A stretch of 29,735 bases of DNA from a virus: IMG/VR virus record IMGVR_UViG_3300030108_000458, positions 1 through 29,735 of that record, one strand, 5' to 3'. Shown piece by piece: positions 8,609-28,964 of this stretch (positions are counted from its first letter, which is position 1; each line of letters starts with the position of its first letter). A program made the translations under genes and the position numbers. The notes below the pieces were generated by a model, which saw nothing but the letters and a program-made list of their open reading frames with translations, did no database searches and was not told the DNA's origin.

Positions 8609-9781
8609 ATGGAAATTATAGAATTATTATTAGATGAAAATGATGAACTGACTGGAATAGAAGCAGTTAGTTTGGTAGAGAACCCAGCCATTGAAGAAGA
8701 GTGGATAACACTTAGTAAACAAGAAATTAAGTTTGCAAAAATAGATGAAGAAAAAAGAATCCTTCTTGGAGCGGCTCTGGTTCCAAATAAACCAATATTT
8801 AGAAAGCGTAATGATACTATGTTTTATGTGTATTTTAGTAAAGATACAGTTAAAAGAGCAAGTGAATTATTCTTTATGAATGGCAACCAGAATAATGCAA
8901 CCTTAGAACACAACATGGAAATAAATGGCTTATCAGTTGTAGAAAGCTGGATAGTTGATGACCCTGAAATGGACAAGAGCAAGAAGTATGGTTTTGATGT
9001 AGTTGAAGGAACTTGGATGATTTCTATGAAAGTAGAAAATGATGAGGTTTGGAATGACTATGTAAAAACAGGTAAGGTCAAGGGCTTTAGTATTGAGGGA
9101 TATTTTGCAGATAGAGCTAAGATTAGTAAACCTAATTTAAAAGCAGAGATGGAAGCCATTTTAGAAAGTGAAGCAGAATATATGTTAGGCAATATTAAAG
9201 CACTAATTAAAAAAGATAAAAGAACTAAAAATGGCAAAAAAATTACATTGGAAACATACAATGATTATCCATCAGGAGTTGCTAATAATGCTAAAAGAGG
9301 TATTAAATTTAATGAAAAGGTTAACAATAAATGCGCTACACAGGTAGGCAAAATTAGAGCACAACAATTAGCAAACAAAGAGAACATTAGCTTAGAAACT
9401 ATTAAAAGAATGTATAGCTATTTAAGTAGGGCTGCTGAATACTATGATGAAGCTGATAAAGAAGCATGTGGTACTATTAGCTATTTACTATGGGGTGGTA
9501 AAGCAGGGCTAAGATGGTCTGAAAGCAAATTAAAAGAATTAGGAGAAATTAATCTTGCGTCTATGGTAGTTGATGACAATTTTGCAATTATTGATGATAG
9601 GTTAGCGTATAGCACACAAGAGAAAGCTGAAGAGATGGCTAAGAACATTGGTTGTGAGGGTTTTCATGTGCATGAGTATGAAAATAAAGAATGGTACATG
9701 CCCTGCAAAGAGCATACATTATATAAGCATAAATGTCCAAAGGGTTACAAAAAAAAAGACGGTAAGTGTGTAAAAAAATAA
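8609..9781 (+). CDS. XkdF-like prohead serine protease with extra C-terminal domains
   Basis: A 390-residue protein. The first 170 residues match the phage XkdF-type (Peptidase S78_2) protease: VSLVENPAIE near the start, ILLGAALVPNKPIFRK (51-66), a candidate catalytic His in NATLEHN (H101) and a candidate Ser in VKGFSIEGYF (S161). This enzyme normally trims scaffold and capsid in the prohead. A second domain (about 215-320, with YPSGVANNAKRGIKFN and AEYYDEADKEACGTISYLLW) resembles a stretch I have seen fused to such proteases but cannot name. The last 50 residues carry several Cys and His (FHVHEY, CKEH, CPKGYKKKDGKCVKK) and may bind metal. It lies upstream of scaffold and capsid genes, as expected. 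Confidence 0.82.
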   Translation: MEIIELLLDENDELTGIEAVSLVENPAIEEEWITLSKQEIKFAKIDEEKRILLGAALVPNKPIFRKRNDTMFYVYFSKDTVKRASELFFMNGNQNNATLEHNMEINGLSVVESWIVDDPEMDKSKKYGFDVVEGTWMISMKVENDEVWNDYVKTGKVKGFSIEGYFADRAKISKPNLKAEMEAILESEAEYMLGNIKALIKKDKRTKNGKKITLETYNDYPSGVANNAKRGIKFNEKVNNKCATQVGKIRAQQLANKENISLETIKRMYSYLSRAAEYYDEADKEACGTISYLLWGGKAGLRWSESKLKELGEINLASMVVDDNFAIIDDRLAYSTQEKAEEMAKNIGCEGFHVHEYENKEWYMPCKEHTLYKHKCPKGYKKKDGKCVKK

Positions 9782-23980: not shown

Positions 23981-24295
23981 ATGATGGAAGAATCAAATTA
24001 CTTATTGAAAAGGGGTTTGACTATGTCAGTCATACAAGGTTTATTAATGGAAGGTTTTACACTTCCAGAGATAGCTAAAGAATTAAATATTAGACCTGAA
24101 AGATTGGCAAGAGAATATAAACCAATTAAAAAAAAATATAAGTACTTTGATAACATAACACCTAAAAAGGTAGATGAAGGGTTGGGTGCTTGTTCATTTA
24201 CCTTTGATGGTGTTTATACTTGGGACAGGTTAAGCCAATCTGAAATAGAGGCTTATAATGATTATAACAAAAAAAACCACGCGTATTATGTATGA
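23981..24295 (+). CDS. Small helix-turn-helix-like protein
   Basis: A 104-residue protein; GLLMEGFTLPEIAKELNIRP (about residues 20-39) fits a helix-turn-helix, with EIAKELNI as the turn and recognition helix start, followed by ERLAREYKPIKKKYK. The C-terminal part (FTFDGVYTWDRLSQSEIEAY) is of unknown fold. It could be a DNA-binding regulator. ATG 23981 and 23984 are both possible. It overlaps the following gene by 8 bp, where the composition starts to change. Confidence 0.55.
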   Translation: MMEESNYLLKRGLTMSVIQGLLMEGFTLPEIAKELNIRPERLAREYKPIKKKYKYFDNITPKKVDEGLGACSFTFDGVYTWDRLSQSEIEAYNDYNKKNHAYYV

Positions 24296-24530
24296 ACAAA
24301 ATGAATTATTTTCTTTCGAAGATTTTTTAGAAAATGACGAAAGTGATATAGACCATAATTACCCTCAACAAGTTTTATTATATTATAGCGAACAAGAAAA
24401 AAAAGAACTTGATATTATGACTAAACTATTAATAAAACATTATTGGGGTGATAATTATAAAAAAGCTAATAGATGTGATTTAATATTAAAAATTTTTAGA
24501 AATGAATGTGAAAAAATTAAAAGTCAATAA
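24288..24530 (+). CDS. Small acidic protein at the head of the modification cassette
   Basis: I chose ATG 24288, which overlaps the upstream stop; an ATG at 24258 is possible. The product (80 residues) has an acidic N terminus (FSFEDFLENDESDIDHNYPQ) and a Lys-rich C-terminal half. It overlaps the dioxygenase gene by 29 bases, so it is likely translated with it. No motif is recognised. It may belong to the transferred block. Confidence 0.6.
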   Translation: MYEQNELFSFEDFLENDESDIDHNYPQQVLLYYSEQEKKELDIMTKLLIKHYWGDNYKKANRCDLILKIFRNECEKIKSQ

Positions 24531-25380
24531 ATTATTTAATGACGACAAAGCAGCTAAATTAAAAACTAAATATGTTGATGAAAGTTATATAAAAACCTTA
24601 ATTGACTATGATGTTGACGTGTATGACAATTATAATAATTTACTTTTAAAATTTCGTAAAAATATAATTCCTTATGACATAGTTGAATTAGGTTATGAAA
24701 GTTTTAAAGGTTCACTGCAAAAAACTGAAGGAAGGGGTGCAGCAAGTGGGGCAAGCAAAAAAAGAGTTAGAAAAGATGGTTCTGTTAGTAACACTACAGT
24801 CGGAAATTTTGTAACAAGCGGCAATGTAGGTTATATGGATAGTTCAGCAATGGTTCGTTATTGTAGATTGACTAATTTTGGTAAAGAAAACTATGAACTT
24901 TTTAAATCTGGTATTCCTTTTATAGAATACGTTGATAAATTATATGAACAATTATGCCCTAATCATTATAAAAAGCAAAGAGCATTAGCAGACGCAACAA
25001 ATATAAATTATAAAATCCCTAACACGTCTTTCACTACAGTTACGGTCAATAAAACTTTTAGGACAGCTGTACACCAAGACAGCGGAGATTTTCGTGATGG
25101 ATTTGGTAATTTAATAGTATTTAATGACAAAAGTTATGAAGGCGGTTATTTTGTTTTGCCGCAGTACGGAATAGGTGTTGACGTACAAACTACTGACGCA
25201 CTTTTTGTTGACGTACATAAGTGGCACGGAAATACTGAAATGAAACTTCGTGAGGGTTTTGATGAAATATTTCGTATTAGTTTTGTATTGTACTATCGTG
25301 AAAATATGTTTAAATGCAAACAACCTACCCAACAACTTGAAGATTTAAAAATGAAATATCACGGATATTTAAAAATATAA
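24502..25380 (+). CDS. TET/JBP-family 2-oxoglutarate/Fe(II) dioxygenase
   Basis: A 292-residue enzyme. The C-terminal half has the TET/JBP double-stranded beta-helix: TTVTVNKTFRTAVHQDSGD (178-196) supplies the HxD iron ligands H191 and D193, followed by GFGNLIVFND and YEGGYFVLPQYGIGVDVQT (212-230). DVHKWHGNTE (237-246) carries the distal His (H242, possibly H239), and FRISFVLYYREN supplies the 2OG-binding Arg (R258). The N-terminal part has GYMDSSAMVRYCRLTNFGKE (110-129), also seen in phage TET/JBP proteins. These enzymes oxidise the methyl group of 5-methylcytosine (TET) or thymine (JBP) in DNA. At least six Arg codons are CGT, unlike the neighbouring genes. I am confident of the family, not of the substrate. 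Confidence 0.88.
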   Translation: MNVKKLKVNKLFNDDKAAKLKTKYVDESYIKTLIDYDVDVYDNYNNLLLKFRKNIIPYDIVELGYESFKGSLQKTEGRGAASGASKKRVRKDGSVSNTTVGNFVTSGNVGYMDSSAMVRYCRLTNFGKENYELFKSGIPFIEYVDKLYEQLCPNHYKKQRALADATNINYKIPNTSFTTVTVNKTFRTAVHQDSGDFRDGFGNLIVFNDKSYEGGYFVLPQYGIGVDVQTTDALFVDVHKWHGNTEMKLREGFDEIFRISFVLYYRENMFKCKQPTQQLEDLKMKYHGYLKI

Positions 25381-25399
25381 ACAAAATAAACTATAAATT

Positions 25400-25849
25400 A
25401 TGAAAACAAAAAATAAATTAGAAAAGGGTCTTGAATTTGAAGAAAAAATATATGACTGGTTATTAAGAGAAAAAAATATCAGCTGTAAAAAAAACCCATT
25501 AAAAAAACAACCTATAGGAGAAAATGCTCAAGGCATAGAAATAAAAAATGACCAAAGGTTTAAAGAAACTGGAAACCTATTTATTAGCACAAATAAAATA
25601 TATGGACACAAAACCATTGGCTGGGGCATTTATAAAGACGATAACAGTTGGCTTTATATAATAGGAGATGAAAGCAAATTTTGGATATTTACTTGCAAAC
25701 AATTACAAAACTTTCAAAAAGAAAATAAAGTATTTACTAAAGTAGTAAAACACGAAAAAGGTAGCGAAGCTGGCTTTCTTTTGCCTGTAAGTAAAGCTAA
25801 TAAAATTGCACCAAGTTATAGTATTAATCAATTAACATTACAATTATGA
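25400..25849 (+). CDS. Putative PD-(D/E)XK-like nuclease in the modification cassette
   Basis: A 149-residue protein between the dioxygenase and glycosyltransferase. It starts with a helix (LEKGLEFEEKIYDWLL) and then QPIGENAQGIEIKNDQRFKE, where GIEIK (E47, K49) fits the E-x-K of PD-(D/E)XK nucleases. The usual upstream acidic residue is Q44 or N42 here, so the site may be altered. WGIYKDDNSWLYIIGDES (75-92) and SEAGFLLPVSKANKIA follow, typical of the fold's later strands. It could cut unmodified DNA, or serve in DNA processing. It overlaps the glycosyltransferase by 4 bp. Confidence 0.55.
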   Translation: MKTKNKLEKGLEFEEKIYDWLLREKNISCKKNPLKKQPIGENAQGIEIKNDQRFKETGNLFISTNKIYGHKTIGWGIYKDDNSWLYIIGDESKFWIFTCKQLQNFQKENKVFTKVVKHEKGSEAGFLLPVSKANKIAPSYSINQLTLQL

Positions 25850-26607
25850 AACCTATATTAATACCTTCTAAAGGAAGAGCAGATAAATGTAAAACAGCAT
25901 TGTTGTTAGGTAATTTATCTAATTTATTTATAGTTGTTGAAAAACAAGAACATGAATTATATTCACAAAACGAAGATTTAAAACATTATAATTTTATAAT
26001 TTTACCAGAAAACGATAAAGGGATCAGTTATGTTAGGAATTATTGTTTACAAATTACCTATAAAATGGGCTGGGATTGGTTTTGGATGATTGATGATGAT
26101 ATAAATAATTTTTATAGAAGAGAAGGAAGCAAATTAATAAAAGATAATAAGGCGTTGTTTGAAGCTGAAAAAATCATAGATAGTAAAACAGCTCAAATTT
26201 CTTTAGAGTATCAACAATTTGCTTGGTGTGCTAATAAAGATTATGTCTTAAACAGTTATAATGACGTTTGCGTTTGTATAAATACTAGAGTTTGCCATGA
26301 GCAAGAAATAAAATATAGACCTTATGTTAATTTAAAAGAGGACAGGGATTTTACAATGCAAATTATCAAGGCTGGCTATAATGTAAAAAGATATACTTTA
26401 AGTGCCTTTGGAGCTCCTAAAAACGGAAGTAATGAAGGTGGGCTAAAAGATATGTATGACAACAGGGATAATGAATTAACTGCTACTAAACGGATGATTG
26501 AATTATGGGGTGAAGATGTATGTAGATTAAATATTAAAAAAGACGGCAGACCTGATTGTAAAATTATTTGGAAAAATATTAACAAAAAACAACTTAATTT
26601 ATTTTGA
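25846..26607 (+). CDS. GT-A glycosyltransferase, TET/JBP-associated (TAGT/GREB1-like)
   Basis: A 253-residue enzyme. It begins PILIPSKGRADKCKT (3-17), where the SKGR turn and first strand bind the sugar nucleotide. GISYVRNYCLQIT (59-71) and WFWMIDDDINNFY (78-90, DDD at 83-85 as metal-binding DxD) follow, then NLKEDRDFTMQIIKAGYNV (162-180, acidic ED motif). This arrangement fits the glycosyltransferases found next to TET/JBP dioxygenases in phages. Here it would add a sugar to a hydroxymethylated base. It follows the nuclease-like gene with a 4-bp overlap and ends the cassette. The exact sugar and base are unknown. Confidence 0.78.
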   Translation: MKPILIPSKGRADKCKTALLLGNLSNLFIVVEKQEHELYSQNEDLKHYNFIILPENDKGISYVRNYCLQITYKMGWDWFWMIDDDINNFYRREGSKLIKDNKALFEAEKIIDSKTAQISLEYQQFAWCANKDYVLNSYNDVCVCINTRVCHEQEIKYRPYVNLKEDRDFTMQIIKAGYNVKRYTLSAFGAPKNGSNEGGLKDMYDNRDNELTATKRMIELWGEDVCRLNIKKDGRPDCKIIWKNINKKQLNLF

Positions 26608-28453: not shown

Positions 28454-28624
28454 ATGGCAAAGAAAAGAACACTAAATGAATTAAGACAAACTAAAGAGGT
28501 TTATGACCATCCTTATGAACCTGTAGTTAATGGTATTAAATATCTATGTGCTATATATCCTAATAATGCAGATTTAGGTGCAGCAGTTAGAGAACATTTC
28601 CAAATACATAAGAATGAACGCTAA
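28454..28624 (+). CDS. Small basic phage protein
   Basis: I chose ATG 28454 (MAKKRTLNELRQ), one base after the previous stop, over an upstream ATG at 28412 inside it. The 56-residue product has YDHPYEPVVNGIKYLCAIYP and a charged C terminus. It overlaps the nuclease gene by 11 bases. Function unknown. Confidence 0.55.
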   Translation: MAKKRTLNELRQTKEVYDHPYEPVVNGIKYLCAIYPNNADLGAAVREHFQIHKNER

Positions 28625-28964
28625 TAAAAAAGGCAAAAGATTTGAACTTAAAGTAGCTAAGTTTCTTGCAGAAAGACTTGATGCTAATATTAGAAGAACA
28701 CCCAATAGTGGTGGGCTAAGCATGAAAGGTGATATACTATGTATTGATGATCAATCTATATTATCAGAGTTTAACTGGGAATGCAAGAACCAAGAGAAGC
28801 TAAACATTTGGAAAGCACTTGAGCAAAGCAGAAATGATTGTTTAGGTAATGCAAAGATGCCTGTAGTATGCTTTACTAAAAACCATGAAAGAGATTACAT
28901 TGCTTTAGAATTAGATGACTTTGTAAATTTATTAATAGAAATTGAAGAAGGTAGACAAAAATAA
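28614..28964 (+). CDS. Holliday-junction-resolvase-like PD-(D/E)XK nuclease
   Basis: I chose ATG 28614; upstream ATG 28578 would extend into the previous gene. The 116-residue protein has GKRFELKVAKFLAERL (E11), RRTPNSGGLSMKGDIL (D40) and FNWECKNQEKLNIWKALEQS (E56, K58). The order E, D, ExK then a Gln/Glu-rich helix is the Hjc/VRR-type signature. It would cut branched DNA before packaging or in recombination. The start overlaps the previous gene by 11 bases, and the end overlaps the sigma-like gene by 23. Confidence 0.7.
   Translation: MNANKKGKRFELKVAKFLAERLDANIRRTPNSGGLSMKGDILCIDDQSILSEFNWECKNQEKLNIWKALEQSRNDCLGNAKMPVVCFTKNHERDYIALELDDFVNLLIEIEEGRQK

Follow-up and report, generated by a model that had tools for sequence, protein, structure and literature searches.

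The locus at positions 24288–26607 of the virus record IMGVR_UViG_3300030108_000458 raises the question of which modification a small phage introduces into its DNA, and by what means the enzymes reach that DNA. The window, i.e. the whole stretch of DNA analysed, is a linear, AT-rich record of 29,735 bases from a marine phage; almost all of its genes lie on the + strand. The four genes of the locus, all on this strand, encode a small protein, a TET/JBP-type Fe(II)/2-oxoglutarate dioxygenase (TET), a nuclease-like protein and a TET/JBP-associated glycosyltransferase (TAGT). Taken together, they probably constitute a hypermodification cassette that hydroxylates and glycosylates a base after replication, is recruited by a sliding clamp and includes a restriction-like partner. 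The cassette was compared with about 80 TET-bearing relatives among viral contigs, with phage P12024L and with the more distant pelagiphage HTVC112P; the genomes of both phages are complete.

The open reading frame (ORF) of the TET (24502–25380, 292 residues) matches the Pfam family Tet_JBP (PF12851) with an E-value of 7e-26 (90.8 bits, cut-off 34.9). The iron site (His191, Asp193 and His239) and the 2-oxoglutarate-binding Arg258 are invariant in 67–69 homologues. The AlphaFold2 model, built from 67 sequences, has a predicted local distance difference test score (pLDDT) of 93.1 and aligns to TET2 (pdb entry 4nm6) with a Z-score of 20.8 over 254 residues, to CMD1 with 19.4 and to NgTet1 (pdb entry 4lt5) with 17.8. 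A sequence search of the PDB with a profile of nine TET sequences found no TET (best E-value 0.32), whereas the fold search did. An earlier, sequence-only reading of the locus had proposed a TET/JBP dioxygenase with an HxD...H...R motif; profile, invariant residues and fold bear this out, and the jelly-roll core on which that reading depended is present in the model, since it aligns to these three enzymes. The predicted activity of the enzyme is hydroxylation of a DNA pyrimidine at the 5-methyl group. Some TET/JBP proteins carry the wrong public labels 'queuine tRNA-ribosyltransferase' or 'SNF2 DNA repair protein' (for example NC_028968 gene 2, KF301602, MN698246 and phrog_6059).

The TAGT gene (25846–26607, 253 residues) matches PF20691 (E-value 1.1e-18, 68.4 bits, cut-off 27.5) and PHROG 842 (2.8e-33). 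Thirteen homologues all preserve its DDD and DRDF motifs, and the protein is 44% identical to P12024L gp27. The TAGT-like GT-A glycosyltransferase recognized by the sequence-only reading is thus supported; it is predicted to glycosylate a hydroxymethyl base. In about 60 of 84 loci the TET gene is followed by one of the glycosyltransferase cluster, and in the cultured Nonlabens phage P12024L the two genes are adjacent, so the pairing is not due to chance. The assignment of TET and TAGT to their families is firm. From profile, fold and gene neighbourhood, all of which favour the earlier proposal, we infer that this phage makes a glycosylated hydroxymethyl base; the presence of such a base in the phage DNA is very likely.

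The relatives exchange the second-step module freely. Among 83 loci the second step consists of a glycosyltransferase only (59), a P-loop kinase (20), both (1) or neither (3). Ten of the 20 kinase loci also encode a 368-residue pyrophosphorylase homologue and the other ten encode the kinase alone. This swap requires 13 changes on the TET tree and occurs even among near-identical TETs, with a glycosyltransferase in locus L037 and the kinase plus pyrophosphorylase in L045. The glycosyltransferase slot itself is occupied by several subtypes that differ in their N-termini. The 368-residue protein is 32–38% identical to mycobacteriophage gp3, whose gene adjoins a TET/JBP gene, and to the 'aGPT-pyrophosphorylase clade 2' protein of Montesquieu, annotated as alpha-glutamyl/putrescinyl thymine pyrophosphorylase clade 2. 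Its identity to the proteins of the Ackermannviridae Ag3 and SKML-39 is 28%. The kinase/pyrophosphorylase pair gave no match to Pfam HMUDK_hel.

Further variants of the second step were observed. In L061 (10864–12742) a radical-SAM/SPASM protein and a 309-residue protein, both ending in QxxLF, stand in place of the glycosyltransferase after the TET. An extra glycosyltransferase (Gly_transf_sug) lies between the nuclease-like gene and the glycosyltransferase gene in three loci (L033:4536–5195, L050:7006–7665 and L079:1367–2029) and possibly adds a second sugar. The Pelagibacter phage HTVC112P (L002:6973–9195) encodes a ParB-like protein, a distant TET and an FkbM-type methyltransferase, which perhaps O-methylates the hydroxymethyl base.

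Two proteins of the cassette end in short motifs that fit the consensus for binding to the bacterial sliding clamp, given in PMC13254535 as Q-phi-x-[LM]-[FL] or Q-phi-x-[LM]-x-[FL]. These are QLNLF of the TAGT (26590–26604, + strand) and QLTLQL of the nuclease-like protein (25829–25846, + strand), the model of which is disordered at residues 145–149. The pattern Q..[LI]F was sought in the last eight residues of 1,438 non-redundant complete ORFs from the 84 loci. It was found in 97 of the 142 proteins of modification families and in one of the 1,296 others, compared with a mean of 2.3 for shuffled ends. Nine families carry the tail, including glycosyltransferases (59/62), kinases (20/21), nuclease-like proteins (24/49) and mini C5-methyltransferases (3/3); it is also present on some N6/N4 methyltransferases and on the radical-SAM protein of L061 and its neighbour. 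The mini C5-methyltransferase-like proteins (213–224 residues; L013:1954–2595, L031:5767–6438 and L045:1883–2536) contain a PPCP motif, end in QxELF and match the first third of the profile only.

A second set was drawn because the families had been grouped in part after the motif was seen. Its loci were fetched by an unrelated methyltransferase of P12024L, so that their selection was independent. Q..[LI]F ends 50 of 82 methyltransferases in this set versus three of 392 other ORFs, and those three are modification genes or fragments. With the looser pattern Q..[LIM][FL], 72 of the 82 methyltransferases match. Cultured phages with such methyltransferases infect Flavobacterium, Cellulophaga, Tenacibaculum, Bacteroides and Streptococcus; the tail was not found on the methyltransferases of sampled Tetrasphaera, Rhizobium, Staphylococcus and Synechococcus phages. 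Two adenine methyltransferases of Streptococcus phages (L183:101–775 and L184:98–766) end in QLKLF, an exact match to the motif. Therefore, the tail is not confined to phages of Bacteroidota.

Neither a beta clamp nor a polymerase A, B or C was found in the window and 16 other records, so the host machinery is presumably used. The phages Cr30 and DLP6 have a TET near their own sliding-clamp genes. Given the C-terminal motifs, recruitment of the modification enzymes to the host beta clamp is likely. Searches of an open-licence set of papers yielded no link of clamp-binding motifs to phage DNA modification or methyltransferases.

The gene between TET and TAGT (25400–25849, + strand) encodes a 149-residue protein of a family termed 'EIK' here and overlaps the TAGT gene by 4 bp (ATGA), the linkage that had been described from the sequence. 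All PDB entries listed by VIA-align for its AlphaFold2 model (pLDDT 82) are PD-(D/E)XK-type nucleases: I-Ssp6803I (Z-score 7.8), D212 (6.3), Hjc (6.1), RecU (6.0), PvuII (5.8) and MutH (3.6). This predicted fold, short of certainty at such Z-scores, agrees with the initial description of the gene as nuclease-like. Foldseek alone gave no match at an E-value of 0.001 or below. Gly40, Glu41 and Asn42 as well as Glu47-Ile-Lys49 are invariant in the family.

The nuclease-like gene is present in 50 of the 84 TET loci. When 73 loci were fetched by the nuclease-like family itself, a TET was found within 3 kb in 60, and in 11 an MT-A70 gene instead of a TET is located directly upstream; the remaining two are cut off beside a glycosyltransferase gene. 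A modification gene thus accompanies the nuclease-like gene in all 71 informative loci. In L256 (1832–3435) and L258 (1743–3429) it follows a ParB-like/MT-A70 methyltransferase. Since it accompanies two unrelated kinds of DNA-modifying enzyme, the predicted nuclease is, with moderate confidence, a restriction-like partner of these enzymes. Its nucleotide identity to the counterpart in the relative L003 (7576–8025) is 89.6% versus 66–80% for the flanking genes, which points to a recent exchange; the adjacent glycosyltransferase is of a different subtype in L003 and in the window.

The base on which the TET acts was approached by way of the enzymes that would have to supply it. The earlier reading had noted the lack of any visible gene for a C5-methyltransferase, a thymidylate synthase or a nucleotide kinase in the window; the ORF annotation and a PF00145 search of the window lead to the same result. 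PF00145 is likewise missing from 30 longer records, including the complete P12024L and HTVC112P, and from the complete genomes of Prince, Cr30, DLP6 and P12024S. An earlier formulation that C5-methyltransferases are always absent from TET loci was dropped because a search of the shorter records gave eight positives. The DNA methyltransferase suggested by a PHROG 1530 label at 8609–9781 proved false, as Pfam gives a phage protease. Thymidylate synthase/hydroxymethylase (PF00303) had no match above the cut-off in the 30 records; a weak match in P12024L (12.7 bits) is below it and was taken as chance. As no pre-replicative route was found, the hydroxymethyl base would most simply be made by the TET in the polymer. 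Since C5-methyltransferases are rare, thymine is somewhat favoured over 5-methylcytosine as the substrate, and thymine would need no further enzyme.

Accordingly arranged, the cassette may work as follows. Working on replicated DNA, the TET would hydroxylate a pyrimidine of the polymer, most likely thymine, at its 5-methyl group. This would yield 5-hydroxymethyluracil, as with JBP enzymes, independently of any DNA methyltransferase. The TAGT would then add a sugar, giving a base similar to base J, or glycosyl-hydroxymethylcytosine if the substrate is 5-methylcytosine. The QLNLF and QLTLQL tails would recruit TAGT and nuclease-like protein to the beta sliding clamp of the host, where these enzymes could act behind the fork on freshly made DNA. 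DNA lacking the modification would probably be cut by the PD-(D/E)XK-like protein.

Several observations weigh against parts of this reading, beginning with the substrate. The same cassette could act on 5-methylcytosine supplied by a host methyltransferase, or an unseen one of the phage, and the TAGT would then make glycosyl-hydroxymethylcytosine. The enzymes with the nearest folds, TET2, NgTet1 and CMD1, all use 5-methylcytosine, hosts may provide this base, and PF00145 does match in eight of the 50 shorter records (eight of 80 overall), in four at full length. Furthermore, PMC12730594 (citing Burke 2021) depicts known phage TETs as parts of C5-methyltransferase/TET/glycosyltransferase systems acting on cytosine. 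Such a system includes a phage-encoded C5-methyltransferase, which the window, short of about 0.87 kb of its genome, does not contain; nor do P12024L, HTVC112P, the 28 other long records and the complete phages named above. In addition, the enzymes of the alternative second step have homologues in phages with hypermodified thymine. According to PMC6336734, the Ackermannviridae member Vi01 has bases derived from 5-hydroxymethyldeoxyuridine, and the pyrophosphorylase and kinase genes are conserved across that family. The kinase of the relatives is itself loosely classified, with Ploopntkinase3 below the cut-off. On balance, 5-methylcytosine is a serious possibility and the less probable of the two substrates.

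The tail, too, could be some other short signal, for instance one for degradation (a degron) or for assembly. Thr or Gln often takes the place of an aliphatic residue at position 2, the TET itself has no such tail, and the strict consensus is found in 29 of the 142 modification-family proteins (none of the 1,296 others), fewer than with the loose pattern. Yet many tails are exact instances of the published motif (QLNLF, QINLF, QLKLF), the tail is restricted to modification enzymes that act on DNA and have unrelated folds, and three TAGTs sampled from other phages (POP12, PTm1 and Vibrio 1.076) lack it; a signal of another kind is therefore improbable. Somewhat less doubtful, though still unlikely, is that the middle gene encodes a Holliday-junction resolvase or a homing-type endonuclease that is merely located in the cassette. 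A homing endonuclease and two resolvases (Hjc, RecU) are among its best fold matches, all of which have Z-scores below 8, and its high identity to L003 suggests a recent transfer. Against this stand its constant company of TET or MT-A70 genes and the RusA-like resolvase that the window already encodes at 28578–28964. GT-A enzymes are diverse, and the TAGT might serve sugars of the cell surface or the phage tail while the TET acts separately, e.g. in erasing host methylation. This is very improbable in view of the strict linkage to TET, the replacement of TAGT by kinase and pyrophosphorylase in the same slot, and the clamp-type tail that it has in common with DNA methyltransferases.

Among known systems, the closest to the window is gp25–gp28 of the Nonlabens/Persicivirga phage P12024L, a small Bacteroidota phage. 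It has the small protein, a TET of about 60% identity and the TAGT in the same order. Unlike the window, this cassette, known from its genes, has an N6/N4-type methyltransferase and no nuclease-like gene. P12024L and P12024S share host and genus and differ in this one locus: the former carries TET, TAGT and methyltransferase (L001:16409–18674), the latter an ATPase/GNAT gene and small ORFs (L190:16313–17855).

Burke et al. in 2021 and Iyer et al. in 2013 reportedly described phage TET/TAGT hypermodification of cytosine with a C5-methyltransferase. Hydroxylation by TET followed by glycosyltransfer is common to those systems and the window, whereas the methyltransferase by which they are described is missing from the window and its longer relatives. 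The operons of mycobacteriophage Prince (gp1–4) and Gordonia phage CaiB encode ParB, TET/JBP, a pyrophosphorylase/'DNA glycosylase' and a kinase (PMC9302106). They resemble the relatives in that TET/JBP adjoins a pyrophosphorylase homologue and a P-loop kinase, and Prince is also devoid of a C5-methyltransferase; unlike the window, they have no glycosyltransferase, and the Prince proteins have no QxxLF tails. In the base J pathway of kinetoplastids (JBP and a glucosyltransferase) a base in DNA is likewise oxidised and then glycosylated, a parallel that would hold if the substrate is thymine. That pathway belongs to another lineage, and no J-binding domain is visible in the window. The pairing of a PD-(D/E)XK-like gene with a modification gene recalls restriction-modification systems; here, however, the modification is oxidation and a sugar (or MT-A70 methylation) with no classical cognate methylase. 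Phage TET plus glycosyltransferase is thus a known kind, and its methyltransferase-free, modular and clamp-tagged form is new within the literature examined.

The commonest gene order in the relatives is small protein, TET, nuclease-like gene and second-step enzyme. The small protein (24288–24530, + strand, 80 residues) starts at the second ATG of an ORF that extends to 24258 (24258–24530) and overlaps the start of TET by 29 nt. Homologues (cluster 1) abut or overlap TET in 70 of the 84 loci; the protein has no Pfam match above the cut-off. A loose match to the clamp motif, QNELF, is present near its N-terminus (24297–24311, + strand). It is a weak feature, found in four of the 70 homologues and in the clade of the window only. 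Replication genes are located downstream of the cassette.

The gene for the large terminase is already open at the start of the window, and the window ends just past a sigma-like gene. In the alignment to L003, position 1 corresponds to codon 55 of the terminase and 29,459 to the end of the sigma-like gene. Judged from this alignment of its ends, the window is a near-complete, circularly permuted genome with about 0.87 kb absent. In L003, the corresponding segment contains nothing but short ORFs and the terminase start.

More broadly, small phages without a polymerase may possess a modular, replication-coupled and clamp-tethered hypermodification of thymine with a modification-sensing nuclease, similar to restriction-modification and a bacterial counterpart of base J; this generalization is tentative. 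Deciding between thymine and 5-methylcytosine would show whether viruses of bacteria have a route resembling that of base J. Glycosylated phage DNA resists many nucleases, and clamp-type tails would explain how new DNA is armoured in such small phages while the host copies it. If correct, a shared tag for the host clamp on enzymes of several unrelated folds would offer a general account of how small phages get their DNA modified ahead of attack by host nucleases, and would provide a simple sequence mark for finding more modification enzymes.

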